Shown: positions 25,574 through 45,769 of the stretch, in pieces
How the letters are laid out: every line of letters begins with the position of its first letter
How positions within the stretch are numbered: the stretch's first letter is position 1
Source: Gammaproteobacteria bacterium
GTDB lineage: Bacteria > Pseudomonadota > Gammaproteobacteria > Steroidobacterales > Foliamicaceae
DNA length: 46,424 bases
NCBI GenBank assembly: GCA_028821145.1
Contig: JAPPHC010000040.1
Location: 1 to 46,424, forward strand
Direction: 5' to 3'
Notes under the pieces: model-generated
Database searches by the model: none
What the model saw: the letters and a program-made list of their open reading frames with translations, nothing else
What the model was told of the DNA's origin: nothing
Made by a program: the position numbers and the translations under genes

Positions 25574-26332
25574 TCAAGTGTCAAGCTCCGCCAGTTTCGC
25601 AATCACCCGATCGTGAACGATGCGGTCGTGGGCGTCCCGGGAGGGCAACTCCCTGGCGCGCTGCAGAAGGCTGAGGGCTTCTTCGAGGTGTCTGCGCCTG
25701 TCCAGAAGCAACAGCCCCAGGGCATATTCCGCGTGAACGATCTTGGCGTCCGGCGCAAGCTCAAGCGCGGCATTGTAGTGGGCGCGGGCTTCATTGCCGC
25801 TGGCCCCGAACAGCACCCTTGCCATGAATCCACCGCCCCGGATGGCCTCCGCGTGCCAGGCTCCCAGGCTCAGATGCGCCTCGGCCAGTCCCGGTTTCAG
25901 TAGCAGTGCGCGCTCCAGCGCCGCCCGCACCCGTCCGGCATATTCGCGCTTGACCCCCAGCGTGCCCACCGCCTGCGTATAGCGCCCCATGGCGTGAGCG
26001 TGTTGAAGATGCGCCGCCGGGTTCTCCGAGTCCTTTCGAATCGCCTTCTGTCCAAATTGCATGGCGCGGCCGAGCAGTTCGGCTTTCGTGTCTTCCGCAG
26101 CCAGGTAATGCCCGTGTATCGCCAGCGCTTCGGCCGCCAGCGCGTATCCGTCGGAAGTGTCCAGGGCTTCGGCGACTTCCGCGGCCTCGACGAACCGGCC
26201 CTCGCCAAGCGCCGTGCGCGCCGCTTCGATGGACTGGCCGTTCGCGGCCCCTGCGGAGAGCAGGCCAATACCGGCCGGCAGGCAGGCCAGCCATCCGGCA
26301 GTACGGAACCCGGTCAGATTCCGCAGCAGCAC
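25574..26332 (-). CDS. Exported TPR-repeat protein
   Basis: 252 residues with a signal peptide (N-terminal Arg residues, then a hydrophobic core ending near GAANG/QS). The mature part is helical tetratricopeptide-like repeats: EAARTALGEGRFVEAAEVAEAL, ENPAAHLQHAHAMGRYTQAV, PGLAEAHLSLGAWHAEAIRG split across repeats, and APDAKIVHAEYALGLLLL. The start is GTG 26332, which lies inside the codons for the core peptide of precursor 1, a 19 bp overlap in another frame; no later start is plausible before the repeats. TPR proteins mediate protein contacts; a partner is unknown. Confidence 0.75.
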   Translation of the reverse strand: MLLRNLTGFRTAGWLACLPAGIGLLSAGAANGQSIEAARTALGEGRFVEAAEVAEALDTSDGYALAAEALAIHGHYLAAEDTKAELLGRAMQFGQKAIRKDSENPAAHLQHAHAMGRYTQAVGTLGVKREYAGRVRAALERALLLKPGLAEAHLSLGAWHAEAIRGGGFMARVLFGASGNEARAHYNAALELAPDAKIVHAEYALGLLLLDRRRHLEEALSLLQRARELPSRDAHDRIVHDRVIAKLAELDT

Positions 26333-26568
26333 ATGCCGGCCGAAATCGCTTCGAGTTGCTCCTCGTCCAGCACCGGGTCGGGCGGCAGAACGACATGCAC
26401 GGTGCGCATGTCGCTTTGATGCACGTGAAACTCAATATGGTCGGGAATCTCGATGCCGAATTCCTGGTACAGGGTGCCCTTGGGATCCGCTATGAGCCCC
26501 CTGCGGAAATCGCTATCGTCAGCCGCCCTCTGAATGAGATGGCGCTGCATGTCCTCAGCGGACAACAT
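26314..26568 (-). CDS. NHLP-type RiPP precursor peptide 1, core MCCCGI
   Basis: 84 residues. The first about 78 form a nitrile hydratase alpha-like leader: MLSAEDMQRHLIQRAADDSD, FRRGLIADPKGTLYQEFGI, then VHVVLPPDPVLDEEQLEAIS. The sequence ends AISAG-MCCCGI, where Ala-Gly is a C39-type cleavage site, leaving a six-residue core with three consecutive Cys. Aligned with precursor 2, the leaders are the same length from Met1 and share ADPK, SDM, TVH, LPPDP and EEQLEAISAG. The gene overlaps the start of the TPR gene by 19 bp and lies 117 bp after ubiA. A core this short is unusual for the family. Confidence 0.88.
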   Translation of the reverse strand: MLSAEDMQRHLIQRAADDSDFRRGLIADPKGTLYQEFGIEIPDHIEFHVHQSDMRTVHVVLPPDPVLDEEQLEAISAGMCCCGI

Positions 26569-26656
26569 GTCTGTCTGCCTTAGTGATCACGGCTCTGCGC
26601 CCCGCTTATGTTTACCGCAAGTCCAACCAGACTTCCTGATCGTATCACAAAGACAG

Positions 26657-26675
26657 CCCGGAATCGCATCCCGGG
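26657..26675 (-). terminator. Hairpin downstream of ubiA
   Basis: On the minus strand CCCGG and CCGGG arms (26671-26675 and 26657-26661) flank a nine-base loop, followed by GCTGTCTTTG. The arms are short and the T-run weak, so it is at best a partial terminator between ubiA and precursor 1. Confidence 0.3.
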
Positions 26676-26685
26676 GTGTACCTCG

Positions 26686-27564
26686 TCAACCTGTGGTGAA
26701 GAGCATGTCGAGCGCCAGCCCGGCGAAGAGCAGAAAGCCCAGCAGCGAATTGTTGTTGAAAGCCTGAAAGCACCGCTCGCGGTCCCTGCCGCGTATCAGC
26801 GCAATCTGCCGGCCCGCGCACAGCATCGCGCCGGCGACACCCGCGAAGTAAGCCGGCCCAAGGCCGGCCGCCCATCCCAGCCCGATCATGCCCGCCAGGT
26901 ACGTGGCATGCGCCACGACGATGAACAGCACGTCGTGCCGGCCCAGGACGATCGCCGTGGACGGAACGCCGATCCGCTCATCGTCGTCCCGATCCACCAT
27001 GGCGTAAACGGTGTCGTAAATCACCACCCACAGGAAAGTCAGCGGCCAAAGCATCCACAAGGAGGGATTCCCGAGATCCGAAACGGCGGCGTACGCCATC
27101 GGAACGCCCCACGAAAACGCCACGCCCAATACCAGTTGCGGGGCCGGCATGATCCTCTTCGCGAAAGGATAGAATCCGGCGACTGCCGCGCCCAGTACCG
27201 CCAGCCCGATCACCAGCGGCGGCAGGCTGAAGACCAGCCAGGCTGCGCCTGCAGCCAGCAGGCCGGCCACGGCAAGCGCCTCCGCGGGCCTGATCGCTCC
27301 TGTCGCCAGCGGTCGCGAGCGGGTGCGCTTTACCAGGCGGTCCACGCGGCGGTCGGCATAGTCGTTCACCGCGCAGCCGGCCGAGCGCATCAGGAAAGTG
27401 CCCGCAACAAATACAAGCAGGATGCGGGCCGGCGGATCGCCGCCCGAAGCCAGCCACAGGGCGAACAGCGTAGGCCACAGCAAAAGCAGGGTGCCTGCCG
27501 GACGATCCAGCCGGATCAGCCCGCCGTACGCCTTCAGGCGCTCGGTCAGCACCCCCGAAACCAT
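26686..27564 (-). CDS. ubiA: 4-hydroxybenzoate polyprenyltransferase
   Basis: 292 residues. UbiA attaches the polyprenyl tail to 4-hydroxybenzoate in ubiquinone synthesis, in the inner membrane. The family start DRPAGTLLLLWPTLFALWLA, the first Asp motif NDYADRRVD followed by RTRSRPLATG, and the second Asp motif YDTVYAMVDRDDD are all present, with about eight membrane helices. Start ATG 27564 shares one base with the stop of the upstream barrel gene (TGATG). No ubiC is adjacent. The close match to the ubiquinone branch argues against a dedicated tailoring role in the RiPP locus, though it lies between the two precursor genes. Confidence 0.93.
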   Translation of the reverse strand: MVSGVLTERLKAYGGLIRLDRPAGTLLLLWPTLFALWLASGGDPPARILLVFVAGTFLMRSAGCAVNDYADRRVDRLVKRTRSRPLATGAIRPAEALAVAGLLAAGAAWLVFSLPPLVIGLAVLGAAVAGFYPFAKRIMPAPQLVLGVAFSWGVPMAYAAVSDLGNPSLWMLWPLTFLWVVIYDTVYAMVDRDDDERIGVPSTAIVLGRHDVLFIVVAHATYLAGMIGLGWAAGLGPAYFAGVAGAMLCAGRQIALIRGRDRERCFQAFNNNSLLGFLLFAGLALDMLFTTG

Positions 27565-28793
27565 CAGTAGCTGTATGTGATATCCAATCCCACGAAACTG
27601 TCCCGCCGTCCCGCGTAAGTCATATCCAGCGGATCCACCTGCAGTTGCGCGATCACTTCCAGGCGCATCGACCAGTTGTCGGTCAAGCGGCGAGTCATTC
27701 CGACGTTCAATGCACGGTAATCGCGGCTCAAATCACCCAGGACGCCGACTATGAATTCAGTGCTCTGCACGTCGTTCAACGCAACCGAGACCCCGACGAA
27801 CAGGTCGTTGGCCCACGCGTTTGTGGCCAGCGATCCACGACTGTCATCGTGCCACTCGGCGAACGCGATCACATCCGTCAAGGAGCCGAAAACTCCGTAG
27901 AAATTGCGTTCCAGGCCGAGGATGAAGGCGCGGTAATCCTCCTCCCGGCCCACCAGGTTGCGGGCGCCGTTGCGGCGAATGGCTTCGAGCTTGTAGAGCC
28001 AGTCCCCGGTCGTGAGTTGCGCGTCCAGGCCGAATTGCCGGATCTGTTCGTAGTAGGGAATAAAGGGTGTGTCCGGGCCGGGAATCAGGCCGGGCGGGAG
28101 GGCCGGAACGAAAAAGGGCTCGCGATTGGTCCCGGCGAAGGCGCTAAGGCCGAAATCGACCGGACCTATGGAGTTGCTGTAGCGAGCGGCCAGATCGACG
28201 TGACGCTCTTCGGCGCCGCTCTCGTACAAGGCGTCATCCACCAGTGGGACGCTGCCTCGGAAACGCCCGCCGAACCCCGGAAACGTGCGCTTGCGATGGT
28301 AGGGCAGGACCAGCCATTCAGCCATCCCCCAGCCGCCGGAGACGGTCAGGTAGGCCATTGGCTGACCCAGCTTGGCTTCCTCGCGAGGGTGCTCGATCAG
28401 GTCGAACTGATTGACGACATCCACGAGGTTGTGCAGCTCGACCACGCCCCAGAACACGCGGTCAACTCCCAGGCGAAGCTCCCAGGCAGTTTCGCCCCAG
28501 TCCCCGTACATCAGCAGGTAGGCCTCGCGCAAGTCCGCATGGGTGCGTCGCGAATCGGCGCTGTCGTAGCGATAAAGCGGCGTAAACGTAAAGCTGGTCG
28601 TTTCCGTAATGTCCCAGTAAAGCGTGGGCTCAACGACCACGCCGCCGCTTCCCGCACGCTGACCGGCAAAGGCCGGCGTTTCCGGAAACCAGCGGGTCTG
28701 CAGGCTCAGGTCGCCGGAAAAATCAAGAGTCTGGGCAGCGGCGCCCCATGGAACCATGAGCGCGAGAGCCGCACAGACGCCGCGGAATCGCAT
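27564..28793 (-). CDS. Outer-membrane beta-barrel protein of unknown function
   Basis: 409 residues. A signal peptide (MRFRGVCAALALMVPWGAAA, then QTLDFSG) precedes a series of alternating amphipathic strands rich in Tyr and Trp, for example TLYWDITETTSFTFTPLYRY and YLTVSGGWGMAEWLVLP, and the protein ends in a terminal aromatic (GLDITYSY), as outer-membrane barrels do. Start ATG 28793 begins the signal peptide; the frame extends to 28907 without family-like sequence. It resembles porin-like proteins of the DUF1302 kind, but I do not assign a substrate. Its stop is coupled to ubiA by a one-base overlap. Confidence 0.75.
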   Translation of the reverse strand: MRFRGVCAALALMVPWGAAAQTLDFSGDLSLQTRWFPETPAFAGQRAGSGGVVVEPTLYWDITETTSFTFTPLYRYDSADSRRTHADLREAYLLMYGDWGETAWELRLGVDRVFWGVVELHNLVDVVNQFDLIEHPREEAKLGQPMAYLTVSGGWGMAEWLVLPYHRKRTFPGFGGRFRGSVPLVDDALYESGAEERHVDLAARYSNSIGPVDFGLSAFAGTNREPFFVPALPPGLIPGPDTPFIPYYEQIRQFGLDAQLTTGDWLYKLEAIRRNGARNLVGREEDYRAFILGLERNFYGVFGSLTDVIAFAEWHDDSRGSLATNAWANDLFVGVSVALNDVQSTEFIVGVLGDLSRDYRALNVGMTRRLTDNWSMRLEVIAQLQVDPLDMTYAGRRDSFVGLDITYSY

Positions 28794-28873
28794 CAGCGCA
28801 CGCGTCGAGGTGCGGGCTGGCTGAATTTGCTGTGATCCAAGGCATCGCCCCGACTGCAAAACGCGCAGTGAAT

Positions 28874-28898
28874 ATTGTATGGCATGGTCTGTTACAAT
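28874..28898 (+). promoter_or_regulatory. Candidate extended -10 promoter and inverted repeat upstream of precursor 2
   Basis: TGT followed by TACAAT (28890-28898) fits an extended -10 element about 80 bp before the precursor 2 start; no good -35 is present. The TACAAT forms a perfect inverted repeat with ATTGTA (28874-28879), 13 bases apart, so the site could also be an operator or serve both directions toward the divergent barrel gene. Confidence 0.35.
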
Positions 28899-28977
28899 GA
28901 GTTCCACCAGCGTTGTGATTCTTTACGGGAAACGCGGCGCGGGCCTCTGAAGCAACTCAATAAGACGGGGGTTTACT

Positions 28978-29229
28978 ATGAGAAGTGGAGAACAGATGCT
29001 ACAGCAGATTGTCGAGAAGTCCGCCCTGGACGCGGAATTCCGGCAACAGTTGTTGGCAGATCCCAAAAACACCATCAGCAAGGAATTGGATATTGCGATT
29101 CCCGATTCGATGACGATCCAGGTTCATGAGAGCGACATGCAGACCGTGCATCTCGCATTGCCTCCTGATCCGAACATCACCGAAGAGCAACTCGAGGCCA
29201 TTTCAGCCGGCCTCTGCTGCTGCTGGTAA
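28978..29229 (+). CDS. NHLP-type RiPP precursor peptide 2, core LCCCW
   Basis: 83 residues. The leader is nitrile hydratase alpha-like: MRSGEQMLQQIVEKSALDAE, FRQQLLADPKNTISKELDI, and TVHLALPPDPNITEEQLEAI. It ends AISAG-LCCCW: a C39-type Ala-Gly site followed by a five-residue core of Leu, three Cys and Trp. Start ATG 28978 has GGGGG six bases upstream and aligns residue for residue with precursor 1; ATG 28996 is the alternative. It is the only plus-strand gene between 21143 and 44501, converging on the biosynthetic run, and is followed by two strong hairpins. Confidence 0.9.
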   Translation: MRSGEQMLQQIVEKSALDAEFRQQLLADPKNTISKELDIAIPDSMTIQVHESDMQTVHLALPPDPNITEEQLEAISAGLCCCW

Positions 29230-29261
29230 ACCGAACCGGCCGGCCAGGCGCCGGTCATGAC

Positions 29262-29279
29262 GCGGAACTACGGTTCCGC
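29262..29279. terminator. Hairpin after precursor 2 (first)
   Basis: GCGGAAC (29262-29268) pairs perfectly with GTTCCGC (29273-29279) across a four-base loop, within a wider GAACCGGC/GCCGGTTC pairing. It lies between convergent genes; no T-run follows on either strand. Confidence 0.5.
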
Positions 29280-29302
29280 GCCGGTTCGATCCTGAAAGCT
29301 GT

Positions 29303-29325
29303 CCCCCGCTCAACGCGAGCGGGGG
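29303..29325. terminator. Hairpin after precursor 2 (second), probably bidirectional
   Basis: CCCCCGCTC (29303-29311) and GAGCGGGGG (29317-29325) form a perfect nine-pair GC-rich stem with a five-base loop, between the convergent precursor 2 and the unknown gene at 29369. The lack of a T-run means termination is likely but not certain; mRNA end protection is an alternative. Confidence 0.55.
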
Positions 29326-29368
29326 ATGGTTCGCGCGCATATGTCCTGCGCAACGGGTTGATGGGCCC

Positions 29369-30484
29369 CTAGCCCGGCACCTCTCCGGACAACACCATGA
29401 ACACGTAAGCCTTGGCCTTGCGAAGCCTGTTCCCGGAGATGACCAGCTTGATGTGGTGAATGCCTCTTAACAATACGTAACGCCCGGTCTTTCCGAACAG
29501 CATGGAGGGTTTGGACACCCAGCCGGCAAGCGCCCGAAGCTTGTCCGCGACTACCAGGTCCTCATGGCCGAGGGCGTCCAGAAACGGGTCCCAATCGGTA
29601 AGCCCGTCAAGCCAGTAGCGCGCATCTTTCGTATATCTCTGCTTGACGATGAGCGTGAGCCCGAGCGCAGGGCCCACGCCATTTTCCTCGACGTCGATGT
29701 TCGCGCCGGAACGGACGATGTTCGCCCGCTCCCGGAAGCGTGCAATCACGGACTCCACGGCCGAAATCCGGCCGGGCCAGCCCGAGTCCTGAAGAAAAGA
29801 ACATATTTCCTGCTGCGATCCGAAGCCCATTACCGCCAGGCGTATCGCGCGCGAGCGGGACGGAAATACGCCGAAGGAATCCATTCGCGTGTCTACGGGC
29901 TGCGCCCGGTAAACCATTTCGAGGCTCTTCCGCTGAGCATCGCTCATCTCCCAGCCCACGCAGGAAACGAGCGCGTCAACCACCGTGCCCACATCGTGCA
30001 GCTGGTCACCGCCCACGATCGGACGTTCGCCGGGCCGCAGGAAGATTCCGGGTTGCGCATGCCCGTTGCCGCGCGCCGAGCCTATGTCGTATTCCAGCAT
30101 CAGTTTGCGCCCGACGATCTCGCGCAGCGGCGAGCCTTCGGATTCCATATCCCTGAACAGGCGCACGACGGCTCTCGCCGTCTCATTGCTTTCATCGCCG
30201 CGCGCAAGTTTCTCGAACCAGGCGCCCGCGCGGGTTCCGCTTGCCAGCGAAACCCCGAAATCCGCTTCCGGCCTGCGCTCGTGCAGCGGTAGTTCGAAGC
30301 CGAATGGCAGGGCGGCCATCGTTATCGGAAGTCTCCGGGCGCATTCCAGCACCCGCTGCCATTCACGGTCCCCGATGAGAACGCCCGAAATCCTGTTTCT
30401 CAGGTGCCCCAGCAGGTCGGCCATGGTGCCGCCCTCTTCCGCAAGCCGGTCCTGGGTCCGCGTTATTGCTTCGTCGATGTCCAC
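29369..30484 (-). CDS. Protein of unknown function, last gene of the RiPP run
   Basis: 371 residues, not recognised. No signal peptide or membrane helix is apparent. It looks like a soluble, mixed alpha/beta protein: an N-terminal helical part (DEAITRTQDRLAEE), a middle segment with MLEYDIGSA and a possible internal duplication (VGIFP-like DSFGVFPSRSRAIRLAVMG), then GVGPALGLTLIVKQ, and a C-terminal basic part (KLVISGNRLRKAKAYVFM). It starts nine bases after the YcaO gene stop, so it is almost certainly cotranscribed with it. A role specific to this peptide pathway is inferred from position only. Confidence 0.7.
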   Translation of the reverse strand: MDIDEAITRTQDRLAEEGGTMADLLGHLRNRISGVLIGDREWQRVLECARRLPITMAALPFGFELPLHERRPEADFGVSLASGTRAGAWFEKLARGDESNETARAVVRLFRDMESEGSPLREIVGRKLMLEYDIGSARGNGHAQPGIFLRPGERPIVGGDQLHDVGTVVDALVSCVGWEMSDAQRKSLEMVYRAQPVDTRMDSFGVFPSRSRAIRLAVMGFGSQQEICSFLQDSGWPGRISAVESVIARFRERANIVRSGANIDVEENGVGPALGLTLIVKQRYTKDARYWLDGLTDWDPFLDALGHEDLVVADKLRALAGWVSKPSMLFGKTGRYVLLRGIHHIKLVISGNRLRKAKAYVFMVLSGEVPG

Positions 30485-30493
30485 GCTGTCTCC

Positions 30494-32770
30494 TCAGGCG
30501 ATGACCGGTGCGGGATTGATGTCGGCTTCGTCCATCGGGCGGCGGCGGCGGCCCATGCTGACCGGCACCTCATACAGGCGTCCCGGAGCTAGTCGTTCCC
30601 AGAAATGGCGCAGGCCCGGCACGATGACCCGCACCACGGGCATGCCGATGTCGGGCCGCGTCTGGTCCAGGACCAGGAACTCCATGCCCGCGGCTTCGAC
30701 CAGCGCCCGGCAATGCTCCACATCCTCGCGCATGTCGGCCGTCTCGATCACCGTGTAGCGGGCGGCGTCGCGCGGCGGCATATCTTGCGCCGGCGCCAGC
30801 CAGGAACAATCCGCAAGCCGGGCGGTCTTCCACCACCAGAGCGCCAGCGGATCGTCGATCATGGGCCGGCCGTCGCGGCTCTCTGGGCGCGGCAGCCAGG
30901 TCAGGCACTGGTTCAATTCGCAAACCGCGCGCAGGGCCGCTATACGCGGGTCGGCATGGGCGCCGGCGCCGTAGATGATGTCCTCGGTTTCCGCATCCGG
31001 CCGTCGCGAGAGCGCAACGAATGCGGGAATTCCGATATCGGAGGTCACGTCGAGCATCCACAGGTCCCGCTCGAAGCGGCCGTAATAGTCCGCCGCGGAC
31101 GCAAGGTACTCGTCGTCGAAGCTGGCCAGATCCACGGCCGGCACTTCGAGCCTGTTGTACCACCAGATGGCGAAAGCATCGCGCTCGGCCAGTTCGTAGA
31201 AGCCCTGCAGTATGGCCTCCTCCAGGGTGTTGCCCGCGGCGCAGCCGTTGGAATCGGCAATCAGGTCGCCGGCTGTGCGCTGCTCGGGCGCCATGCTGTA
31301 GAGCATCGAGGTCGGCAGATAGCGATGGCGCTGCTGCGTAAACGACCATACCGGCGTCCAGTCCAGTTCGGCGTCGTGATCCAGGCGCTCAGGCACGATG
31401 TTGTACGGGTGCCCCTTGGCGTTGATGTTTTCGGCGTTGTCAAGCTGAGTGTCGCTGAAGAGCTGCGCGTCGTTGGGGTGAATTGCCTCCCCATCGGCGG
31501 CGAAATCGGTAAAACGCCTGCGGGCGCGGATCTCGTCTCCATGAAGGCAGCCCGAATACCGCTCGAGGGCCTCGCACAGCGCGCTGACCTCCGACTGCTC
31601 GCGCGTGCTGCCCTTGCCGGCGCTCTTGCTGCGCAGGCTGCGCCGGAGCGAACTCAAGGTTCGGCTTCTCATGCCGAGATTGCTCCCCGCCCAATAGACA
31701 TGCAGCCAGGAATCGGCCTCGTCGGTAGTGCGCTTCAGCCAGGTCACGACGCCGCTGATCGGGCTCACCAGGTGGCGGTATTTCGCCAGCGTGACTTCGG
31801 GCGCCACGGTGCGCGCGCCACCGCTATTGCTGACGGCCCTGGGACTCGACTTCAGCCGCAAGGCCACGGGCGCCCGGTCCGCACGGAAAAGGGCTTCGTC
31901 GCCGCAGGCCGGGCACTGCGGCCGGCGCATGACGCGGTGCCGCGAGCTCGTGAACGTTCCGATGTCCATCGTCATAGCCTGTTCGTGAATCGGCGACGCC
32001 TCGCCGAGCACCAGCCACTTGACGATCTCCGCCGCGATCAGCCCGTACAGTGCATCGAGCAGCGCGGGGTCGGCGGCAAACGGTTTGAATGCGGCCTTCT
32101 CGCCGGCGACATTCCTGAGAAACTGATGCACTTCCTGGTGACCGCCAAGCCGGTAAGCCAGGCATGCCCAGCAGGGACCTTCGCCATCCGCCCGGAATAC
32201 GGGACCGAACAGCGGCTGGATACCGCGAGGGCGCATCAGCATCCATGGCGCACCTGCTTCAAGCCGGCGGCGATTCTCCTGCGCAAGGCGTTCCTGCAGA
32301 TATTCGTCGCAAACGATCACGCTGAGCTTCGGCCCGTCGTTCCCGACGGCGGCCCCGAGTTCTTCCAGATGCCGCGCCAGGCGGCCCTCGTCGCCCGTTA
32401 TTTCGACGCGCGATTCCGCCAGGCGTTGCTCCGCCCGGCATGGCGACGCGCCGAGGGACGACCAATAGGCCGCCCGGTCCCTGTCCATTCCATGCCCGCC
32501 GGAGACTACGTAGCCCCTGGCGGCCAGTGAAGCGATGGCCGCTCGAACTTCGGAGTCGGTGTGTCCGGCCTTGAGGGAGGCGGCAATTTCTTCCTGCTCG
32601 AGCCGGCCGTCCAGCACAGGCAGGAGCTTGCAATAGATTTCGCCGTGCAGCAGCGTATTGAACGACTCGGAAACCAGCAGGGTCTGCTGCTCGCCGATGA
32701 CGTGGAACTCCAGGTGGGGCGTAAGCGCGGGCAGCTTGACGATGCCCCGGTCGGCAGCCGTCGTCTTCAT
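30494..32770 (-). CDS. Fused E1-like/YcaO azoline-forming cyclodehydratase
   Basis: 758 residues. These enzymes bind the precursor leader and use ATP to cyclise Cys, Ser or Thr of the core to azolines. Residues about 10-90 look like the leader-binding winged-helix (RRE) domain. A ThiF/E1-like part follows, with structural zinc Cys pairs CWAC (200-203) and CPAC (286-289). From about 330 the YcaO domain carries the ATP/Mg acidic motif STREQSEVSALCEALERY (388-405) and DSNGCAAGNTLEEA with YELAERDAF (506-533). The C-terminus INPAPVIA recalls the Pro-rich tail of active cyclodehydratases. The three-Cys cores of the two precursors are the likely substrates. No azoline dehydrogenase is nearby. Confidence 0.9.
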   Translation of the reverse strand: MKTTAADRGIVKLPALTPHLEFHVIGEQQTLLVSESFNTLLHGEIYCKLLPVLDGRLEQEEIAASLKAGHTDSEVRAAIASLAARGYVVSGGHGMDRDRAAYWSSLGASPCRAEQRLAESRVEITGDEGRLARHLEELGAAVGNDGPKLSVIVCDEYLQERLAQENRRRLEAGAPWMLMRPRGIQPLFGPVFRADGEGPCWACLAYRLGGHQEVHQFLRNVAGEKAAFKPFAADPALLDALYGLIAAEIVKWLVLGEASPIHEQAMTMDIGTFTSSRHRVMRRPQCPACGDEALFRADRAPVALRLKSSPRAVSNSGGARTVAPEVTLAKYRHLVSPISGVVTWLKRTTDEADSWLHVYWAGSNLGMRSRTLSSLRRSLRSKSAGKGSTREQSEVSALCEALERYSGCLHGDEIRARRRFTDFAADGEAIHPNDAQLFSDTQLDNAENINAKGHPYNIVPERLDHDAELDWTPVWSFTQQRHRYLPTSMLYSMAPEQRTAGDLIADSNGCAAGNTLEEAILQGFYELAERDAFAIWWYNRLEVPAVDLASFDDEYLASAADYYGRFERDLWMLDVTSDIGIPAFVALSRRPDAETEDIIYGAGAHADPRIAALRAVCELNQCLTWLPRPESRDGRPMIDDPLALWWWKTARLADCSWLAPAQDMPPRDAARYTVIETADMREDVEHCRALVEAAGMEFLVLDQTRPDIGMPVVRVIVPGLRHFWERLAPGRLYEVPVSMGRRRRPMDEADINPAPVIA

Positions 32771-32808
32771 TGGGGCTTGCTGAGGATTCGTTTCCGTCCG
32801 GGACGCCC

Positions 32809-34851
32809 TCAGGCGCGCGTGAGAAAGGCATCGAGTTCCGCTTCAGCGTCGGGCGCGGTCTCCGTTGCCGCCGACGCGCCCCACTCGGACAGGACGTCGC
32901 GCCGCACTTCGTCGAAGCGGGCCCCTATCCGGGAATCGCCGGTTTCGAACACGCAACGCGCCCTGGTGAGATCGGAACCCCTTGCCGCGCCGAAATTCCT
33001 GCAATGCTCGGCCAGGTCGCCTAACGGCAGCACGACACAGCGCTCCGTCCCTTGCGGGATGGGGGAGAACAGCAGGCTGTTGTGCGTCAGACCGGTCAGC
33101 GTGTCGAGAAACAGCGCGCATAGCCGCCCGCCCTCGCCCGGGCCGTCATGCACAAACAGGAAATCGGCCGCAACGCCGGGATGAGCCTCCCGACCGGCGA
33201 GATCGCCCAGGAATATCGCGGCCGCCCCACCCTCGCTCACGGGCCCGCGCCGGTCCACGAAATCCGCAACCACCGAGGCCAGCACGGTAGCGATCGAGGC
33301 TTCGGCCAGATTCGACAACGCGGTCCTCGCCTCGACAGGCGACAGGTTTCCGCGCATCACGTGCATTCCGATCTGAAATGCCTTGTCGTTCGACCAGTTA
33401 CGCACCACTTCCGCGGTGTCTTTCGCGTCGGTCGCCGGAATCTCGGCCATCAGGCCCTTCATTTCCTCAACGCTCATCTCGAACGTCCAATACACTCGCG
33501 CCAGCCCGCGACGCGCAATCGCTTCGACTTCCGGGTCGGACATGAATCCCCTGGGCAGGTCGAGATCGGTGAATTCCGGATCCTTGAGATTGTCCAGCAG
33601 CTCCGGGTTGCGTTCGATCCATCGCGCCAGCCGCGGGGCGGACCCGAAGATTTCAATGATTGCGCTCAGATGCTCAGGCCGGGCCGCGCCAACCGGGCTG
33701 TCGTAGGCGCTCCAGTCGTCTATCTCCGGGTAGAAATGCTCGCGCCATTGATCCACCAGCGGATCCATCTTTTCGAACCAGCGCTTCGGCCGCAGCACGA
33801 TATTCATCAGGTCGCTGTAGGTGCCCGGCAGGAACGGTGATTCGTCCGCGCCGGTGATCTGCAGCAGCGGATAGGGGCGGCTGGCCAGCGCATGATGGTC
33901 CGCGTGGCGCTGCATGTTGAAGAACATCCAGTTGCTGAACTTCCAGTCGGCGCTCCAGGAATGGCGCGGCGCCACCTTTTCCCAGCGGCCGTTCGGAAGA
34001 AGGACCCGTCGAAGACCGTAGTGTTGCAGGTAATTGCTGATCTTCATCGAGAACACGCAGCAGAAACCGAGGAAGAGGAAGACCAGGACCGCCCAGATTC
34101 CGCCCATCCAGAACACCAGTCCGTACCAGAATGCGACATAGATGCCGTAGCGCCAGAACGGATTGCTGTAGTGCCAGACGGGCAGTCGGCGGCGCGCCAG
34201 GAGCTGGCCTGCCATTTTCCACGAATTGGTGAGGTTGCTTACGATTTCCTTCGGAAAATAACTCCAGAAACTCTCGCCCTTGGGGGCGGACCCCACGTCG
34301 TGCGGCGTGCCCACCTGCGCATGGTGGATATAGACGTGTTCCGTCGCGTACTGCGGATAGGAGGCCGAGGCAAGCAGGAACTCGCCCCACCGCCTTTCCC
34401 AGGGAGTGCGCCGATGGACCAGTTCGTGACCGACAATAAAGACCGCCTGCGCCTCCATCGTCAGGATGATCGCCAGTATCACGTCCTCCCAAATTGCAAA
34501 CGGATTCGCAACCAGAATCTGCCACAGGCCGAAAACCAGCGTGACAGGCCAGAGGAACGCCCAGCACCAGACCGGCAGGTTGTGCCAGATCAGGCGGCGG
34601 CCCGGAGCCTTGGCCGGATCCATGTTGCGACCGTCGAGACCGAACGCCCGATCGAGCGGCGTGGCGGCGGCAAAGAACAGAAACGGCGGCAACAACCACC
34701 AGCCTCCATAGGCCGCGGCGGCAAGAATCAGGGGAAATACGCCCAGCGGCAGATAGTGCGGCAGGGCTGTTCGGATCGAAGGCTCGATCAGATCTGAGAC
34801 ATCGACATTGTGTGGCCCAAAGCCACCACTTGCGGCTGTTTCCTGCGGCAT
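32809..34851 (-). CDS. AlkB-like membrane di-iron hydroxylase fused to a degenerate GlnE-like nucleotidyltransferase domain
   Basis: 680 residues. Residues about 30-380 are an alkane-hydroxylase-type integral membrane domain with the His boxes HELVH (142-146), HVYIHH (172-177), NYLQHYGL (274-281) and HADHH (316-320). Box three normally reads NYxEHYG; here Glu is Gln. Residues about 382-655 align with GlnE: IFGSAPRLARWIERNPELLD, then AFQIGMHVMRGNLSPVEA, LSNLAEASIATVL, and FLGDLAGREAHPGVAADFLF. Compared with the intact GlnE at the left edge, GSDLDL has become GVAADF and the VDTRLRPSG Asp is lost, so the transferase is probably dead and may bind a nucleotide or protein instead. It is 38 bp before YcaO in the run. 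I know of no characterised protein with this architecture. Confidence 0.85.
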   Translation of the reverse strand: MPQETAASGGFGPHNVDVSDLIEPSIRTALPHYLPLGVFPLILAAAAYGGWWLLPPFLFFAAATPLDRAFGLDGRNMDPAKAPGRRLIWHNLPVWCWAFLWPVTLVFGLWQILVANPFAIWEDVILAIILTMEAQAVFIVGHELVHRRTPWERRWGEFLLASASYPQYATEHVYIHHAQVGTPHDVGSAPKGESFWSYFPKEIVSNLTNSWKMAGQLLARRRLPVWHYSNPFWRYGIYVAFWYGLVFWMGGIWAVLVFLFLGFCCVFSMKISNYLQHYGLRRVLLPNGRWEKVAPRHSWSADWKFSNWMFFNMQRHADHHALASRPYPLLQITGADESPFLPGTYSDLMNIVLRPKRWFEKMDPLVDQWREHFYPEIDDWSAYDSPVGAARPEHLSAIIEIFGSAPRLARWIERNPELLDNLKDPEFTDLDLPRGFMSDPEVEAIARRGLARVYWTFEMSVEEMKGLMAEIPATDAKDTAEVVRNWSNDKAFQIGMHVMRGNLSPVEARTALSNLAEASIATVLASVVADFVDRRGPVSEGGAAAIFLGDLAGREAHPGVAADFLFVHDGPGEGGRLCALFLDTLTGLTHNSLLFSPIPQGTERCVVLPLGDLAEHCRNFGAARGSDLTRARCVFETGDSRIGARFDEVRRDVLSEWGASAATETAPDAEAELDAFLTRA

Positions 34852-34929
34852 GGCAGCGTCTCTACGGGATGTTCACCCCCGCCTACATCGCGGTTCATGT
34901 TAGCACCGCATGACATCGGCGCAAATCGT

Positions 34930-36231: not shown

Positions 36232-36241
36232 CGGCTTGCGC

Positions 36242-39166: not shown

Positions 39167-39170
39167 CGCT

Positions 39171-41372
39171 TCAACCGGCCTTGACGAGCTTGTAATAGGT
39201 GCCTGCCCGATCCGCGATCAACTCGTCGTGGTTGCCGCGCTGCACTTCGACACCCTTTTCCAGCACGATGATTTCGTCACAGTCCCTAACGGTGCTCAGC
39301 CGGTGCGCCACGATCAGGCAGCTCACGCCCCTGCGACGCAATGCATCGTCGACGTATTCTTCCGTGGCCGCGTCCAGCGCGCTGGTTGCCTCGTCGAGAA
39401 TGAGCACGGTCGGATTGCCCATCAGCGCCCGGGCGATTTCCAACCGCTGTTGCTGGCCGCCGCTGAAATTCACTCCCGCTTCCTCGACCCGAGTCGAATA
39501 TCCGTTCGGCCGGCGCAGGATTTCGTCGTGGATGCAGGCGTCCCGCGCGGCGGCGATGACGGCTTCGTCCGGCACGGCCGGGTTCCACAAGGTGATGTTG
39601 TCGCGCAGGGACGCGGAAAAAAGCACCACGTCCTGATCCACCATGGAAACGGATCGCCGCAGTACTTCTTCGGGTATTTCATGCCGCGGATGGCCATCGA
39701 ACAGGATTTCGCCGGACCAGGGCTGATAGATACCCGCAACCAGGCGCGACAGCGTGGATTTGCCGGAACCGCTGGGGCCGACCACGGCAACCCGGCGCCC
39801 CGGCCTAATCACCAGGTTGAAGTCCTTGATCAGCGGTGGCCTGGCCTTGTTGTAGCCGAAGGTGACCTCCCGCAATTCGACGCGGCCGGCAAGTTGCAGC
39901 CGGCCGTTGAACGTGGGGATCGACTCGGACTCGGGACTACGGCGGGCGAAAACGGGGTCTTCCTCCGCCCTGGAGATGTCTTCCAGCCGCTGCATGTCCG
40001 TATCGAGCGCCTGGCGCTGGTCCGCGAGTTCCAGAAAGCGCCCGATAGGCGCCAGAAACATCTCCGCCAGAATGTAGAGCCCCACGAGCGTACCCAGCGT
40101 GATGTCCCCGGCCATCACCCGGGTGGCTCCGATGCCCAGGATCGCCGCGGCACGCAGTGCGGCGATGAGACCGGGAAGCGCGGCGTCGAGATAGCCCCGT
40201 TCGGAATAGCTCCGGCGCGCATCCAGTTCGCGCGCCTGCTGGCCGCTCCAGCGTGAAAAGAACCGATCGTCGGTGGCCGTCATGCGCAGGTTGTCCACAT
40301 GACTCAACATCTGCATACCGACGCCGATCAGCATTCCCTGCTCACGCCTCATCGCATGGCTTCGATCGGCGCGCAGCGACTTGACGAAATACGCCAGCAC
40401 TCCGTTCACGTTGGCCAGGGCCAGCACGGTCAGCGCAATCCAGACATCATAGGCCAGCATCGCCGCCAGAAACACCGCGCTCATCGCCATGTCGATAATG
40501 AGCACCAGGAGCTGGCCGGTCAGGTTCTTGGCGATCCGGTCGATGGAGGTGACCCGGTCGGTCAGGTCGCCGACCAGCCTGTGCTGGAAGAACTCCACCG
40601 GCAGGCGCAGCAGCCGCGACAAGCCGCTGTTGAAGCCGACCACCGAGATGCGGATCGCCAGACGGTTCAGGAAACGGTGCTTGAGCAGGGAAAGGACGTA
40701 AACCAGGATGCCGGCGCCAAGAAAGGCCGCCACCAATCCCCCCCGGGGCCGGTTGTTTGCCAGAACGTGGTCCACGAAAACACTGACGCTTGCGGGAATG
40801 ACCAGGGCCAGCAGCGCCAGCATCAGTCCGCAGGCAACCGTCCCGGCAACCACGCCCCAAGAGCCCGCGCGCCAGGTGGTCAATTGCCTCAGCAGGCCCG
40901 GTCTTTCGCCGCCCGGCCGGAAATCCGCCGTACGCTCGAATCTCAGTGCAACGTTGCTGTAGCCCTTGTCGAACTCTTCGGCGGTAACCGTACGGCGCCC
41001 GGTGGAAGGGTCGTTGAGGTAGAAATTGTTTCTGTCGAACCCTTCAAGAATCAGGAAATGGTGAAATTGCCAGAACAGGATCAGAGGCAACTCCACCTTC
41101 TTGAGCGCCGCGCTGGTCAGGCTCAGTCCGCTGCACTTGAGACCGTAGTGCCTGGCGGCGCGCAGGATGCTTGCGGCGCTGGAGCCGTCGCGGCTCACCT
41201 CGCATTTTTCGCGCAGTTCGGTAAGCGGGGCCCAGCGCCCGAAATACGCCAGGATGCTGCCAAGGCAGGCAGCGCCGCATTCGGTTGCGTGCATCTGCAG
41301 CAGAAGCGGAGTGGTGACCCTGCGTTTTACGGGTTCCGATGCGGCAGCCTCATTGGAGGCGCGCGGAGGCAT
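39171..41372 (-). CDS. NHLP-type C39 peptidase/permease/ATPase (leader-cleaving ABC exporter)
   Basis: 733 residues. The N-terminal C39 peptidase is intact: Gln26 and Cys32 in QMHATECGAACLG, His105 in FHHFLILEG and Asp121 in LNDPSTG, so it should cut leaders after double-Gly-type sites such as the Ala-Gly of both precursors. Six membrane helices follow, then an ATPase with Walker A GPSGSGKST, signature NFSGGQQQRLEIARAL, and Walker B VLILDEATSALD. It begins one base after the HlyD-like gene and precedes its permease/ATPase partner. Substrate coupling to precursors 1 and 2 is inferred from locus and site. Confidence 0.94.
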   Translation of the reverse strand: MPPRASNEAAASEPVKRRVTTPLLLQMHATECGAACLGSILAYFGRWAPLTELREKCEVSRDGSSAASILRAARHYGLKCSGLSLTSAALKKVELPLILFWQFHHFLILEGFDRNNFYLNDPSTGRRTVTAEEFDKGYSNVALRFERTADFRPGGERPGLLRQLTTWRAGSWGVVAGTVACGLMLALLALVIPASVSVFVDHVLANNRPRGGLVAAFLGAGILVYVLSLLKHRFLNRLAIRISVVGFNSGLSRLLRLPVEFFQHRLVGDLTDRVTSIDRIAKNLTGQLLVLIIDMAMSAVFLAAMLAYDVWIALTVLALANVNGVLAYFVKSLRADRSHAMRREQGMLIGVGMQMLSHVDNLRMTATDDRFFSRWSGQQARELDARRSYSERGYLDAALPGLIAALRAAAILGIGATRVMAGDITLGTLVGLYILAEMFLAPIGRFLELADQRQALDTDMQRLEDISRAEEDPVFARRSPESESIPTFNGRLQLAGRVELREVTFGYNKARPPLIKDFNLVIRPGRRVAVVGPSGSGKSTLSRLVAGIYQPWSGEILFDGHPRHEIPEEVLRRSVSMVDQDVVLFSASLRDNITLWNPAVPDEAVIAAARDACIHDEILRRPNGYSTRVEEAGVNFSGGQQQRLEIARALMGNPTVLILDEATSALDAATEEYVDDALRRRGVSCLIVAHRLSTVRDCDEIIVLEKGVEVQRGNHDELIADRAGTYYKLVKAG

Positions 41373-41373
41373 T

Positions 41374-41925: not shown

Positions 41926-41952
41926 GGCGGCGCCCGGTGTGACCCGGCGAAA

Positions 41953-44304
41953 TTATGGCACGAGGGCGCTTTTCTGCGCGGTTTGTCCGCCGGACGGCTT
42001 GTCGATTGCCAGCAACAGCGCGGGCAGCAGGGACAAATCCGCGATGAGTGCGAAGCCGATAACCATCGCGGTGAGGATTCCCACCTGGGCCGTGGGAAGG
42101 AACGGAGAAAACGCGAATATGAGAAAACCGGCCACCAGCACGACCGTGGTCGTGAACAGCGCCCGCCCGGCGGTCTCGAAAGCATAGTGCACGGCCTGCT
42201 CGGGATCGCGGCCGTATTCGCGCCGCGCACGGCGGTACTTGGCAAGAAAATGCACCGTGTCGTCCACGACTATGCCTATCGTCATGGCCACCACCACGGA
42301 CAGCGAAAGTCCGACCTGCCCGACCGTCAGTCCCCAGACACCGAAACCCATCACGGCGGGGAGCAGATTGGGCACGATGCTGACCAGGCCGAGCCGAAGC
42401 GATCGCAGGGCGGCCAGGAGAATGGCGGAAATCGCGACAAGCACGACGATGGTGCCCAACAGCATGGCTCGGATGTTGCGCTGGCCGATGTAGGCGAACA
42501 GCGCCGAGGGACCGGAACTGTTGACCCCGACGATCCGGGGCGCATTTTCCTTGAGCCAGGCGTCTGCGCGCGCGTTCAGATCCAGCAGGTCCTGCGAATA
42601 CAGCGTCGTGGACGACACCGTCATGCGCGTAGCCGATCGGAGCGTGTCGATCTGGTTGTTGAGATCCAGGCCCTGGGGAAGCGAAAGTTCGTAGAGCAAC
42701 AGGTACTGGGCGGCCAGTTCCCGGCTGTCGGGAATCCGGTAAAACGCGGGATCGTCGCCGTGCATGCTCTGGTTGAGTTGCCGAAACGTGTCGGTGATGA
42801 CCGAGACATGGCGCACGGAGGGCTGCTCGCGGAACCACTCGGCAAAGTCCGATACCTCGATGAGGAATTCGGGATCGGTTACGCCGCCCGCGGCGGCCGC
42901 CTCCAGCGAGTAATCGAGCACGGTATTGCCGCTCAGGTGCTCGTCCATGAAATCGGTGTCGCGCCTGAACTCGACGCTTTCGTCGAAGAAATGGACCAGT
43001 ACGTCGTTGAGTTCGTTGCGCGGAATGGCCACGATCATCGCGATCACCACCACCGCCCATCCCCACAGCAGCGCCTTTCTGCGCCGCAGCGCAAAGTCCG
43101 CCATGGAACCGAGCAGCGGCCCCACCAGGCGCCGGTCCGAACCGGGACGGACCGGGAGCAGCGAAAGCACGGCCGGCAGGAATGTGACGGAGAGAAGAAA
43201 GGACATGCCGATCCCGAAAGCGACGAAGTTGCCGAGGTGGCGGTAGGGGGGCACCTCCGAGAAGTTCATGCTCAGGAATCCGAGCGCCGTAGTGAGGCTG
43301 GCCAGGAACACCGGGTGCAGGTTCAGACTGACGGAATGGACGATGGCATCGCGCTTCGAGTGCCCGGCGCGCATGTGCTGCTGCAATGTCACCAGCAGGT
43401 GAACGCAGTTGGCCACGACAATCATCAGCACGATGGTCGGCGCCGGCGAGATGGGCGGGGAAAACGGCAGGCCGGCCCAACCGCCCAGGCCGATCGACGC
43501 GAGAATGGAAAAGACGATCACCGTCCCGGTCGCCGCCACCCCCGCAATGCCGCGGATGAGGACCCCCAGGATCAGGGCCATAAGCGCAAGGCTGGCGGGC
43601 AGGAAGATCATCTGGCTCTCGATCGATGCTTCCAGGAAGGTCTGGTTGATCATGACCGTGCCGACCACGCGAAGGTCCATGCCGGCAAACTGTTCTTCGG
43701 CCTGTGCGGCGATCTCGCGGGCGAAGCCTGCGACTTCGGCGACCGCCTCCAGCTGGTCCCCGTCGGGCAGTTCCACCGTTACGTTCACCACGCTCACGTC
43801 GCCGCCGGTCGCCAGGATGCTGCCCTCGACACGGGGGTCGGCCAGGGCAATCGCATGTATGCGTGACCGCGCATCGGGATCGCTCAGTTGCTGTGGGTCA
43901 ACGAGGTCCCGCACATACAGGTCGTCGCCCTCGGCCGTCGTGTACTGGAAGTTCGTCAGCGAATCGACCCGCCGGGAATACGGTGTCTGCCAGGCGGCCT
44001 CCGTCAGCCAGACCGCTGCCGAGAGCGCGGTTTCCGAGGTCGCGTTTCCGTCGTCCGGAACGATCAGGAATACGACGTTTTCGTTCTTGCCGTAGGTGTC
44101 CTCCAGCGCTTCCAGCGCCAGGAGCTGCGGATTGTCCTCGTCGAAAAAGATGCGGTAGTCGCCCGAGAAACCGAGTCGCAGAATGCCGCTGGACGCGACC
44201 GCCACCAGGAACAGGGCGGCCAGGATGACCCGGTAGCGAAAAGCGATCATCCATTCGGCAAATCGGGTCGCGAATTGCCCCTTGCCTGTGTCCTGCCCGC
44301 TCAC
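41953..44304 (-). CDS. RND/MMPL family exporter (copy 2), first gene of the RiPP run
   Basis: 783 residues with the same two-fold 12-helix MMPL/RND layout as copy 1. Shared features include FDEDNPQLLALEALEDTY after helix 1, an AAQYLLLYELSLPQGLDLN segment in the second periplasmic loop and VVDDTVHFLAKYRRA near the end. It is the first gene of the eight-gene leftward run, 75 bp or so downstream of a good promoter, so its product is likely exported with the peptide system. Unlike copy 1, it is not followed by a LolA-like gene. Confidence 0.92.
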   Translation of the reverse strand: MSGQDTGKGQFATRFAEWMIAFRYRVILAALFLVAVASSGILRLGFSGDYRIFFDEDNPQLLALEALEDTYGKNENVVFLIVPDDGNATSETALSAAVWLTEAAWQTPYSRRVDSLTNFQYTTAEGDDLYVRDLVDPQQLSDPDARSRIHAIALADPRVEGSILATGGDVSVVNVTVELPDGDQLEAVAEVAGFAREIAAQAEEQFAGMDLRVVGTVMINQTFLEASIESQMIFLPASLALMALILGVLIRGIAGVAATGTVIVFSILASIGLGGWAGLPFSPPISPAPTIVLMIVVANCVHLLVTLQQHMRAGHSKRDAIVHSVSLNLHPVFLASLTTALGFLSMNFSEVPPYRHLGNFVAFGIGMSFLLSVTFLPAVLSLLPVRPGSDRRLVGPLLGSMADFALRRRKALLWGWAVVVIAMIVAIPRNELNDVLVHFFDESVEFRRDTDFMDEHLSGNTVLDYSLEAAAAGGVTDPEFLIEVSDFAEWFREQPSVRHVSVITDTFRQLNQSMHGDDPAFYRIPDSRELAAQYLLLYELSLPQGLDLNNQIDTLRSATRMTVSSTTLYSQDLLDLNARADAWLKENAPRIVGVNSSGPSALFAYIGQRNIRAMLLGTIVVLVAISAILLAALRSLRLGLVSIVPNLLPAVMGFGVWGLTVGQVGLSLSVVVAMTIGIVVDDTVHFLAKYRRARREYGRDPEQAVHYAFETAGRALFTTTVVLVAGFLIFAFSPFLPTAQVGILTAMVIGFALIADLSLLPALLLAIDKPSGGQTAQKSALVP

Positions 44305-44384
44305 GGAACCTGAGCCGCGAGTGCCGCCTTACGCATTGATTCGCGACGAAAACCGCTCATTCCACCCCCATTTGAGTGCAGCCG

Positions 44385-44414
44385 AGTATAGGGTTGGTCG
44401 CCAGGCATTGTCCA
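44385..44414 (-). promoter_or_regulatory. Sigma70-type promoter for the RiPP run
   Basis: On the minus strand TGGACA (44414-44409, 5/6 of the -35 consensus) and TATACT (44390-44385, 5/6 of the -10) are separated by 18 bases. The predicted start near 44378 gives a 5' leader of about 75 bases before the MMPL gene. The divergent halogenase-like gene begins at 44501. Position and spacing make this the best candidate for driving the whole run. Confidence 0.6.
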
Positions 44415-44500
44415 TCGGCAGGCCGATTCCACGCGCTCAAGTAGAATCAGTCTTCGGGCATGTTGACCTAGGTGGTTTCGGGGGGACCCCAGCCGTGACA

Positions 44501-45769
44501 ATGCCGGGCAGTAATTCGTGCAGGAAGATCGCCGTGGTCGGGCGGGGCACGGCGGGCGCGCTGGCCGCCGCCAGCGTGTCTCGACTGCACCCGGACAAGG
44601 ATCACGAACTGCACCACATTTACGACTCGCGCATTCCGGTCATCGGCGTGGGCGAGGGAAGCTGGCCCAGCTTGGTCCAGCAATTGCATCGGCTGTCGGG
44701 ACTGCCGCACGAGAAGGTTCAGCGACGCCTGAACGCGACCCGCAAGTACGGCGTGCAGTTCGAGGGATGGGGCCGGCGGAGAAGCGAATTCATTCACCAT
44801 TTCACGCCACAAGCGGTTTCCTACGCCTATCACCTGTCGGCCGACGTAATGGGGGACCTGCTGAGCGAGGGCACGCGCGCCCGCCACATCGACGCCAAAG
44901 TGCTGGACATCACGAAAGTGGACGGCGGGGCGCAGGTGGAGTTCGAGGGCCTGCCGCCGGAGCGCTACGACCTGGTGTTTGACGCGCGCGGATTTCCCAA
45001 ACGGCTGGATCCCGAAGAGCACATCGAAATCTCCTTCATCCCGACGAACACGGCGGTGATCCGCCGCTGTCCGGCGATCATCGAGGAACCGCCCGACGGG
45101 CCGGTCCTCAAACACACCTATACGCGCGCGATCGCGCGTCCGCACGGATGGGTGTTCGTCATCCCGCTGACCGCGCACACGTCATACGGTTACATCTTCA
45201 ACCGCGACGTGTCCAGCCTGGACGAAGTCGAAAAGGACTTCGACGAGCTGCTGGCGCAGGACGGCGTGCCGGAATTCGAAAAACGCGCCGTGCTGCGTTT
45301 TCCGAACTTCGTCCACCGACGGATCTACGACGGCGCGGTGGCCCGCATCGGTAATGCCGGCGGTTTCATGGAACCGCTGGAAGCCACCGCGATCCGGCTG
45401 GCCGAGATGCAGGTAGGAATGATTCTGCAGATGCGGTTCAACCGGCCGGCCGAATACCAGGAAAACGACGTTTCCGTCGTCAACCGCTTTCTGATCAACG
45501 ACACGCTCACCTGCGGCCTGTTTGTGGGCTGGCACTACAGTTGCGGTTCCCGACATGACAGCCCGTTCTGGCGCCACGCCCGGGATCGCGCCTGGCCGAC
45601 GTACAGAAGCGTCACTGATCCGGAGTCCGTGGGCTGTGCGGCCTTGAGCAAGTTCGATGAAATGATCGGCCTGATCAACACGCCGGTCATCGATCCGTCG
45701 GACTGGGACCGCAGGTGCGGGTTCCCCCTGACCAGCTTCGCGCAGATGTCCCAGGGTCTGGGCGCCTGA
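44501..45769 (+). CDS. Flavin-dependent halogenase-like protein (tryptophan halogenase family)
   Basis: 422 residues from ATG 44501; GTG 44495, two codons earlier, has better spacing to a GGGGGG run and is an alternative. The N-terminal FAD fold VVGRGTAGALAAASV, GVGEGSWP, and K72 in TRKYGVQFEGW (the position of the PrnA catalytic Lys) are present, as is PLEAT (292-296; Glu294 at the PrnA Glu346 position). The WxWxIP motif is altered to GWVFVIP. It is shorter than typical Trp halogenases (about 500-540). Free or peptide tryptophan, phenol, or no halogenation are all possible; precursor 2 ends in Trp, an attractive but unproven substrate. Confidence 0.72.
   Translation: MPGSNSCRKIAVVGRGTAGALAAASVSRLHPDKDHELHHIYDSRIPVIGVGEGSWPSLVQQLHRLSGLPHEKVQRRLNATRKYGVQFEGWGRRRSEFIHHFTPQAVSYAYHLSADVMGDLLSEGTRARHIDAKVLDITKVDGGAQVEFEGLPPERYDLVFDARGFPKRLDPEEHIEISFIPTNTAVIRRCPAIIEEPPDGPVLKHTYTRAIARPHGWVFVIPLTAHTSYGYIFNRDVSSLDEVEKDFDELLAQDGVPEFEKRAVLRFPNFVHRRIYDGAVARIGNAGGFMEPLEATAIRLAEMQVGMILQMRFNRPAEYQENDVSVVNRFLINDTLTCGLFVGWHYSCGSRHDSPFWRHARDRAWPTYRSVTDPESVGCAALSKFDEMIGLINTPVIDPSDWDRRCGFPLTSFAQMSQGLGA

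Follow-up and report, generated by a model that had tools for sequence, protein, structure and literature searches.

What product is made by a locus that joins ribosomal-peptide precursors to a YcaO enzyme, a membrane oxygenase and a terpene-cyclase-like protein, and has such a pathway been described before? The question is raised by a stretch of 46,424 nucleotides (the window; contig JAPPHC010000040.1, assembly GCA_028821145.1) from a gammaproteobacterium of the family Foliamicaceae. The locus carries two precursors with NHLP leaders, an E1-like/YcaO fusion, a set of exporter genes, an AlkB-GlnE fusion, a toroid protein fused to an NHLP leader and a halogenase (Table 1). It is almost certainly a biosynthetic cluster of the srp type (sponge RiPP proteusin; RiPP, ribosomally synthesised and post-translationally modified peptide), because its core LCCCW, its SrpE leader motif, its YcaO and its SrpI residues match the published system. 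The product is probably a short brominated tris-thiazoline peptide, which would also be prenylated, terpene-cyclised and oxidised.

The locus and the published srp system

The core of the plus-strand precursor, LCCCW, is identical to that of published SrpE, and its residues 66-72 read NITEEQL where SrpE has NLTEEQL at 66-72 (PMC10858898, PMC10286304). According to the available excerpts of these two papers, which are the basis for all statements on srp chemistry here, the YcaO protein SrpC forms three thiazolines on SrpE, core LCCCW, and SrpI is a leader-dependent brominase of the C-terminal Trp of SrpE, chlorination not being seen. Eight SrpI residues are given there (K84, Y102, P105, Q106, Q107, V108, S109 and Y110), and when an offset of 2 is applied, as the analyst did, six are matched by the predicted Trp brominase of the window: its K82, P103, Q104, V106, S107 and Y108 correspond to K84, P105, Q106, V108, S109 and Y110, while Y102 is replaced by His and Q107 by Ala. 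These positions are counted from the ATG at 44501, which is probably the true start rather than 44282 because of the alignment with the published SrpI numbering. The halogenase Lys and the flavin adenine dinucleotide (FAD) motif are kept in 30/30 sequences. The E1-like/YcaO fusion scores above the cut-offs of both TIGR03882 and TIGR03604, whereas the two ABC exporter subunits fall slightly short of theirs (843.9 against 853.3 for TIGR03796 in the C39 exporter; 680.8 against 709.4 for TIGR03797 in subunit 2).

A sequence-only reading of the window, made before this analysis, had listed the precursors, E1/YcaO, C39 exporter and partner, HlyD, AlkB-GlnE, leader-toroid, MMPL proteins, an MpaB-like protein and the halogenase, and profile matches place all of these in the window. 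Its outline of a RiPP pathway of the NHLP/C39/YcaO kind, yielding thiazolines on a short three-Cys core, is likewise supported by the profiles and by the srp match. It had recognised no characterised pathway in this combination, which has in fact been published already, as the srp proteusin system of sponges; the locus belongs to that family and has an extra Trp-free precursor. Chlorination, which the reading had entertained, was dropped since published SrpI is a brominase with which no chlorination was seen. The general gene content would suit the earlier proposal of a novel and so far uncharacterised thiazoline lipopeptide, chlorinated or hydroxylated, but given the srp match and the absence of observed chlorination by SrpI this is now very improbable. 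As for an earlier description of the set together with a known product, the chemistry of precursor, YcaO and halogenase has been published, but no final natural product of srp is named in the available parts of mSystems 2022 or of the reviews, the former reporting srp among the few biosynthetic clusters common to sponge microbiomes.

A minus-strand run of genes extends from 44304 down to 29369 in the order MMPL, short HlyD, C39-ABC, ABC2, leader-toroid, AlkB-GlnE, E1-YcaO and a 371-residue protein; the LCCCW precursor is opposed to this run, and the halogenase lies on the plus strand at its far end. A search of the window's own genome with TIGR03793 gave three matches, all at the locus (the two precursors and the toroid leader). 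Absence from this genome means little because it is 66% complete.

Table 1. Features of the srp locus in the window, with the supporting model or fold match.
Feature	Position	Strand	Evidence or remark
Locus	26314-45769	both	two NHLP precursors, YcaO, exporter set, AlkB-GlnE, toroid, halogenase
Second NHLP precursor, core MCCCGI after AISAG, no Trp	26314..26568	-	TIGR03793 2e-18, above cut-off
DUF1302 (probable outer-membrane) protein	27564..28907	-	PF06980 2.3e-7; recurs beside srp genes
SrpE-type NHLP (proteusin) precursor, core LCCCW after AISAG	28978..29229	+	TIGR03793 3.7e-18, above cut-off
371-residue protein, ABBA/PT-barrel fold, predicted peptide prenyltransferase	29369..30484	-	AlphaFold2 and Foldseek
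E1-like leader-binding domain fused to YcaO cyclodehydratase (SrpC-type)	30494..32770	-	TIGR03882 8.9e-41, TIGR03604 5.1e-82
AlkB-type membrane di-iron oxygenase with degenerate GlnE-type nucleotidyltransferase domain	32809..34851	-	PF00487 and PF03710
NHLP leader fused to class II terpene cyclase domain	34930..36231	-	D209-L-D211-S motif, Y306
NHLP-type ABC exporter subunit 2 (permease/ATPase)	36242..39166	-	TIGR03797 2.2e-204
C39 peptidase/permease/ATPase	39171..41372	-	PF03412 1.8e-32; TIGR03796 9.2e-254
Short HlyD-like membrane-fusion protein, 183 residues	41374..41925	-	TIGR03794 0.00025, weak, partial
MMPL/RND exporter with sterol-sensing-like domain	41953..44304	-	PF03176 4e-30, PF12349 5.1e-13
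SrpI-type flavin-dependent Trp brominase (predicted)	44501..45769	+	PF04820 8.7e-49 (longer open reading frame)

Recurrence of the gene set and its precursor cores

The co-occurrence of these genes is beyond chance, and the set recurs in many other genomes. Relatives were sought by scanning a species-genome collection with the AlkB-GlnE fusion, which gave 116 confirmed cases, the best 80 being kept as loci; since these were found via AlkB patterns only, loci without AlkB are unseen, and many contigs end early. Their neighbourhoods mostly carry much of the set, which is accordingly conserved. Matches by tblastn were obtained in the 80 loci for YcaO (74), the 371-residue protein (62), each ABC subunit (54), HlyD (43), the halogenase (39) and MMPL (33). 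The toroid gave raw matches in 59 loci and was counted only where the match extended beyond residue 150, leaving 55/80 once leader-only matches were removed. The order AlkB, YcaO, 371-residue protein is found in 57/80 loci, and with the toroid at its head in at least 42/80, a lower bound because some second-NHLP matches are the toroid's own leader. The toroid, AlkB-GlnE, YcaO and 371-residue protein are followed by an opposed precursor in many loci, and the published gene letters may reflect this order: toroid, AlkB, YcaO and 371-residue protein would be A, B, C and D, then the precursor E, which fits the published C and E. The record titles of the relatives span Gamma- and Alphaproteobacteria, Acidobacteria, Nitrospinota, Binatia and Opitutales. 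One is named Spongia_Bin9, and most of the other metagenome-assembled genomes bear names that we take to be those of sponge projects.

Of the eight matches at 1e-40 that the AlkB-GlnE search gave among 369 genomes of the same class, just two span both halves: the window's own and that in the genome G180 (53% identical, residues 20-660). G180 keeps NHLP, MMPL, the 371-residue protein, YcaO, AlkB-GlnE, HlyD, ABC1 and ABC2 at 40-63% identity, the counterpart of the MMPL exporter being 61% identical. In its whole genome, PF04820 finds a single weak match (2.2e-4, positions 1-43 of 458), which together with its neighbours scores 21.5 bits where the cut-off is 21; the same search also matches E. coli and other controls, and we read the match as a general FAD-binding end, not as a halogenase.

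The precursor cores were compared across 82 stretches (the window, G180 and the 80 loci), 53 with a readable core and 29 without. LCCCW accounts for 49 of the 53, and LSCCW, LSCCM, LCCCGI and LCCC occur once each; the MCCCGI core of the second precursor is found in four of these stretches (the window, L012, L013 and L014), all of which also have LCCCW. The 371-residue protein accompanies every readable core (53/53). Within the available sequence, the 50 stretches with a Trp core include 46 with the toroid and 33 with the halogenase, and neither gene is present in the three with Trp-less cores, namely G180 (LCCC), L078 (LSCCM) and L091 (LCCCGI, with only approximately 3 kb flanking its AlkB gene on one side). 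As a lead from these three related loci, the Trp, the brominase and the cyclase can be regarded as additions to an older Trp-free system.

Several genes lie at the margins of the recurring set. The DUF1302 gene, which the earlier reading did not mention, has a tblastn match in 18/80 loci, often together with a LolA-like gene (21/80) that in other loci adjoins DUF1302 and the brominase. In the window, a LolA-like/DUF1329-like gene and a second MMPL gene (21158-24276) lie apart from the srp operon; the 35/80 matches of this second MMPL (21982-24276) are apparently mainly cross-hits to the first. MpaB-like, TPR and UbiA genes were ruled out as parts of the cluster by their occurrence in only 3, 2 and 3 of the 80 loci, which places the MpaB-like protein of the earlier list outside the recurring set. 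The HlyD protein is approximately 183 residues long in its family, whereas the NHLM HlyD model spans 421 positions and the G180 protein 295 residues, the family lengths being biased towards that of the window because sequences below 85% coverage were left out. In L067, L070, L071, L077, L081 and L090 the AlkB-GlnE gene adjoins YcaO and the remaining srp genes are not in the available stretch, and in L064, L066 and L087 the srp clusters are rearranged, the AlkB-YcaO pair being separated from the cyclase and 371-residue protein genes. A pattern search for short Cys-rich precursors in 17 loci without NHLP or 371-residue protein genes found none, nor did it find any in those of the six AlkB-YcaO loci just named that it covered. 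In G180, a second AlkB-type gene (L011:4923-6074; 27% identical over 237 residues) lies within a few kb of the srp-like cluster.

Folds of the toroid, the 371-residue protein and AlkB-GlnE

The toroid protein begins with an NHLP leader (TIGR03793 score 47.4 among the window proteins, where the cut-off is 50.9, and 51.2 in the genome search) that also matches the MprE7 leader structure 8tb1. Its second domain scores above the cut-off of PF13243, and Foldseek comparison of its AlphaFold2 model (predicted local distance difference test, pLDDT, 88.9) gives the beta-domain toroid fold of class II terpene cyclases, the best matches being drimenol synthase AsDMS (4.8e-12), squalene-hopene cyclases and MstE (1.8e-9). 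In a profile alignment, D209, D211 and Y306 fall on AsDMS D331, D333 and Y427, and all three are kept in 54/54 toroid sequences. The AsDMS residues are catalytic, and the substitutions D331A, D331N, D333N and Y427F abolish all activity, according to the excerpts available (PMC12365925, PMC9128629). Described earlier as terpene-cyclase-like, the protein bears out that description in its fold, but model and conserved residues go further and suggest a true class II terpene cyclase, competent in catalysis.

The 371-residue protein, an unknown in the earlier reading, indeed belongs to no sequence family, with no match of note in Pfam, NCBIfam or PDB sequences, but its model has a prenyltransferase fold. 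AlphaFold2, run with 52 homologues, gave a model (pLDDT 92.2, predicted TM-score 0.91) in which five strand pairs are separated by helix pairs, an order consistent with the ABBA (alpha-beta-beta-alpha) fold. All of the best 50 of 87 Foldseek matches in the PDB (E <= 0.001) are ABBA-fold aromatic prenyltransferases; those listed include DMATS1, PriB, IptA, AmbP3 and CloQ, with a best E of 1.8e-6 and TMq values of 0.40-0.54. DMATS enzymes are expected to have a Glu and several basic residues, and the usual diphosphate site is all-basic. In the predicted strands, E64, D75, S79, K127, E131, R215, D264, H343, H344, K346 and Y360 are invariant (63/63), and R200 (62/63), R340 (61/63) and K358 (62/63) nearly so; the basic K127, R200, R215, R340, K346 and K358 are thus kept in 61-63 of 63 sequences, alongside conserved acidic and His residues. 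The protein is predicted from its model to be a peptide prenyltransferase. None was seen outside srp loci, only the window's own matching in 398 genomes of the phylum, and a PF11991 search of the 398 genomes for DMATS-type sequences was silent but uninformative, the controls being equally silent.

Both domains of the AlkB-GlnE fusion, noted before, are real. The AlkB half matches the PDB profile of 8f6t (2.7e-62) over approximately 315 residues, with H142, H146, H172, H176, H177, H277, H316, H319 and H320 invariant in 80/80 sequences, and the GlnE half matches that of GlnE 3k7d (7e-13). The active-site Asp pair of GlnE is complete in 0/80, on which ground a working adenylyltransferase was rejected, although the 7/80 in which both positions are acidic (Asp or Glu) leave a little room for one; from sequence, the GlnE half is probably non-catalytic. 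The fusion of the window lacks approximately 110 C-terminal residues present in most relatives, the lengths being below 700 residues in 6/80 and at least 760 in 74/80.

Whether these folds add a terpenoid to the srp peptide is the point on which readings differ. A terpenoid arm, comprising prenylation, cyclisation and oxidation, is moderately probable on the strength of the models. Several observations weigh against it. The Foldseek TM-scores of the 371-residue protein are modest (0.40-0.55, with root-mean-square deviations of 6.2-10.2, among the best 50 of 87), and its sequence resembles no prenyltransferase family in Pfam, NCBIfam or the PDB sequences. Its conserved strand positions include several acidic residues and His, which sets it apart from the usual all-basic diphosphate site. 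Its gene is also present with the Trp-less cores of G180, L078 and L091, so that Trp cannot be the general prenyl acceptor. The toroid motif is DLDS, followed by T in 41/54 and S in 13/54, rather than canonical DxDD or DxDTT. The toroid is missing from 4/50 Trp-core stretches, two of which (L049 and L050) break off immediately upstream of AlkB, and was not found in the whole genome of G180. No prenyl-diphosphate synthase is found among the annotated genes of the locus, and the available excerpts of the SrpE work report azolines and bromination, without prenylation (PMC10858898, PMC10286304).

The cluster could instead make a brominated tris-thiazoline peptide oxidised by AlkB only, with no terpene, the ABBA protein and toroid having been turned to another use, such as a scaffold for leader binding or a different chemistry. 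The SrpC/SrpE/SrpI chemistry in the published excerpts needs nothing further, the acidic and His set of the ABBA protein is unusual, and the toroid superfamily has non-cyclase relatives (weak Foldseek matches to complement C4 and RabGGTase). This account is nevertheless unlikely: the full class II cyclase catalytic set is kept in 54/54 toroids, the best structural matches all belong to class II terpene cyclases, and the ABBA gene is present in all 53 stretches with a readable core. Alternatively, the toroid and AlkB may have a free terpenoid or lipid of the membrane as their substrate; MMPL would export it, the peptide would accompany or regulate it, and the leader would recruit the toroid to the exporter. 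The sterol-sensing-like domain of MMPL, the recurring DUF1302/LolA-like genes and the membrane location of AlkB speak for such a role, but it is improbable given the NHLP leader on the toroid, the fixed order of peptide-type maturation genes, and NctPC, in which these two folds act on a peptide (PMC13290415, in the excerpt available).

Proposed pathway and comparison with known systems

With a terpenoid arm added to the srp peptide, a pathway can be proposed. The SrpE-type precursor would be translated with its NHLP leader, the E1/YcaO protein would convert the three core Cys residues to thiazolines (by homology to SrpC), and the flavin halogenase would brominate the C-terminal Trp (by homology to SrpI, as Trp-6 bromination). 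The ABBA-fold protein may also attach an isoprenoid to the peptide, in which the leader-bearing class II cyclase would close rings via protonation by Asp-211, and the AlkB domain could hydroxylate or epoxidise the isoprenoid; the GlnE-like half may have no catalytic role and perhaps mediates docking. Cleavage after AISAG and export would fall to the C39/ABC2/HlyD exporter, while a hydrophobic form of the product is probably the cargo of the MMPL pump. That the locus is an srp cluster and that the terpenoid arm holds as well is, jointly, somewhat probable. The fullest version of the proposal is held more tentatively, at a little under an even chance: the widespread sponge srp clusters in general would make a brominated tris-thiazoline terpenoid peptide, prenylated by the ABBA protein, oxidised by AlkB (perhaps to an epoxide) and cyclised by a class II terpene cyclase whose own copy of the RiPP leader lets it dock in the manner of a precursor, the brominase and Trp having been added to an older, Trp-independent LCCC system. 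A tie to a lipid-like partner, raised by the earlier reading, is likewise probable.

The founding srp paper, reportedly that of Nguyen et al. (JACS 2021), lies outside the literature searched, and in the excerpts of that literature no terpenoid arm of srp was found. The arm is likely to be the new point here, terpenoid RiPPs as such being already known from NctPC. If srp does add and cyclise a terpene, anyone searching sponge extracts for the peptide would have used the wrong masses, a RiPP leader would act on an enzyme as its docking tag, and fold prediction alone would have revealed a lineage of prenyltransferases. The neutral masses calculated for LCCCW are 626.202 when linear, 572.170 with three thiazolines, 650.080 with bromine added and 854.268 or 922.331 with a further C15 or C20, one oxygen adding 15.995.

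Compared with the published srp system, the window shares the SrpE core LCCCW, the YcaO SrpC, the Trp brominase SrpI and the proteusin leader; it differs in its second precursor (MCCCGI) and in the halogenase, which adjoins the MMPL gene and is not placed after DUF1302. With AlkB alkane monooxygenase (8f6t, 8sbb) it shares the AlkB domain and its conserved histidines, but adds a degenerate C-terminal GlnE-like domain and lies in an operon with YcaO. The toroid has the fold, catalytic Asp pair and Tyr of AsDMS and MstE, with DLDS in place of DxDTT and an NHLP leader, instead of a HAD phosphatase, as N-terminal partner. A prenyltransferase is also found with an NHLP precursor ending in Trp in Paenibacillus alvei, in which PalQ prenylates the C-terminal Trp of PalX; from the excerpt available, PalQ has an isoprenoid-synthase fold, not ABBA, and belongs to a three-gene cluster without YcaO, brominase or cyclase (PMC10853753). 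The closest parallel to the proposed arm is provided by NctPC and ChrPC, in which an ABBA prenyltransferase (NctPC) and an MstE-like cyclase are combined. NctPC, an alpha-beta-beta-alpha prenyltransferase fused to the cyclase, attaches a geranylgeranyl chain to Trp in a ribosomal peptide and cyclises that chain (PMC13290415). The domains are fused there, whereas in the window, known from its genes alone, they are encoded by separate genes, the cyclase carries an NHLP leader, and a thiazoline-forming YcaO, a brominase and AlkB are added.

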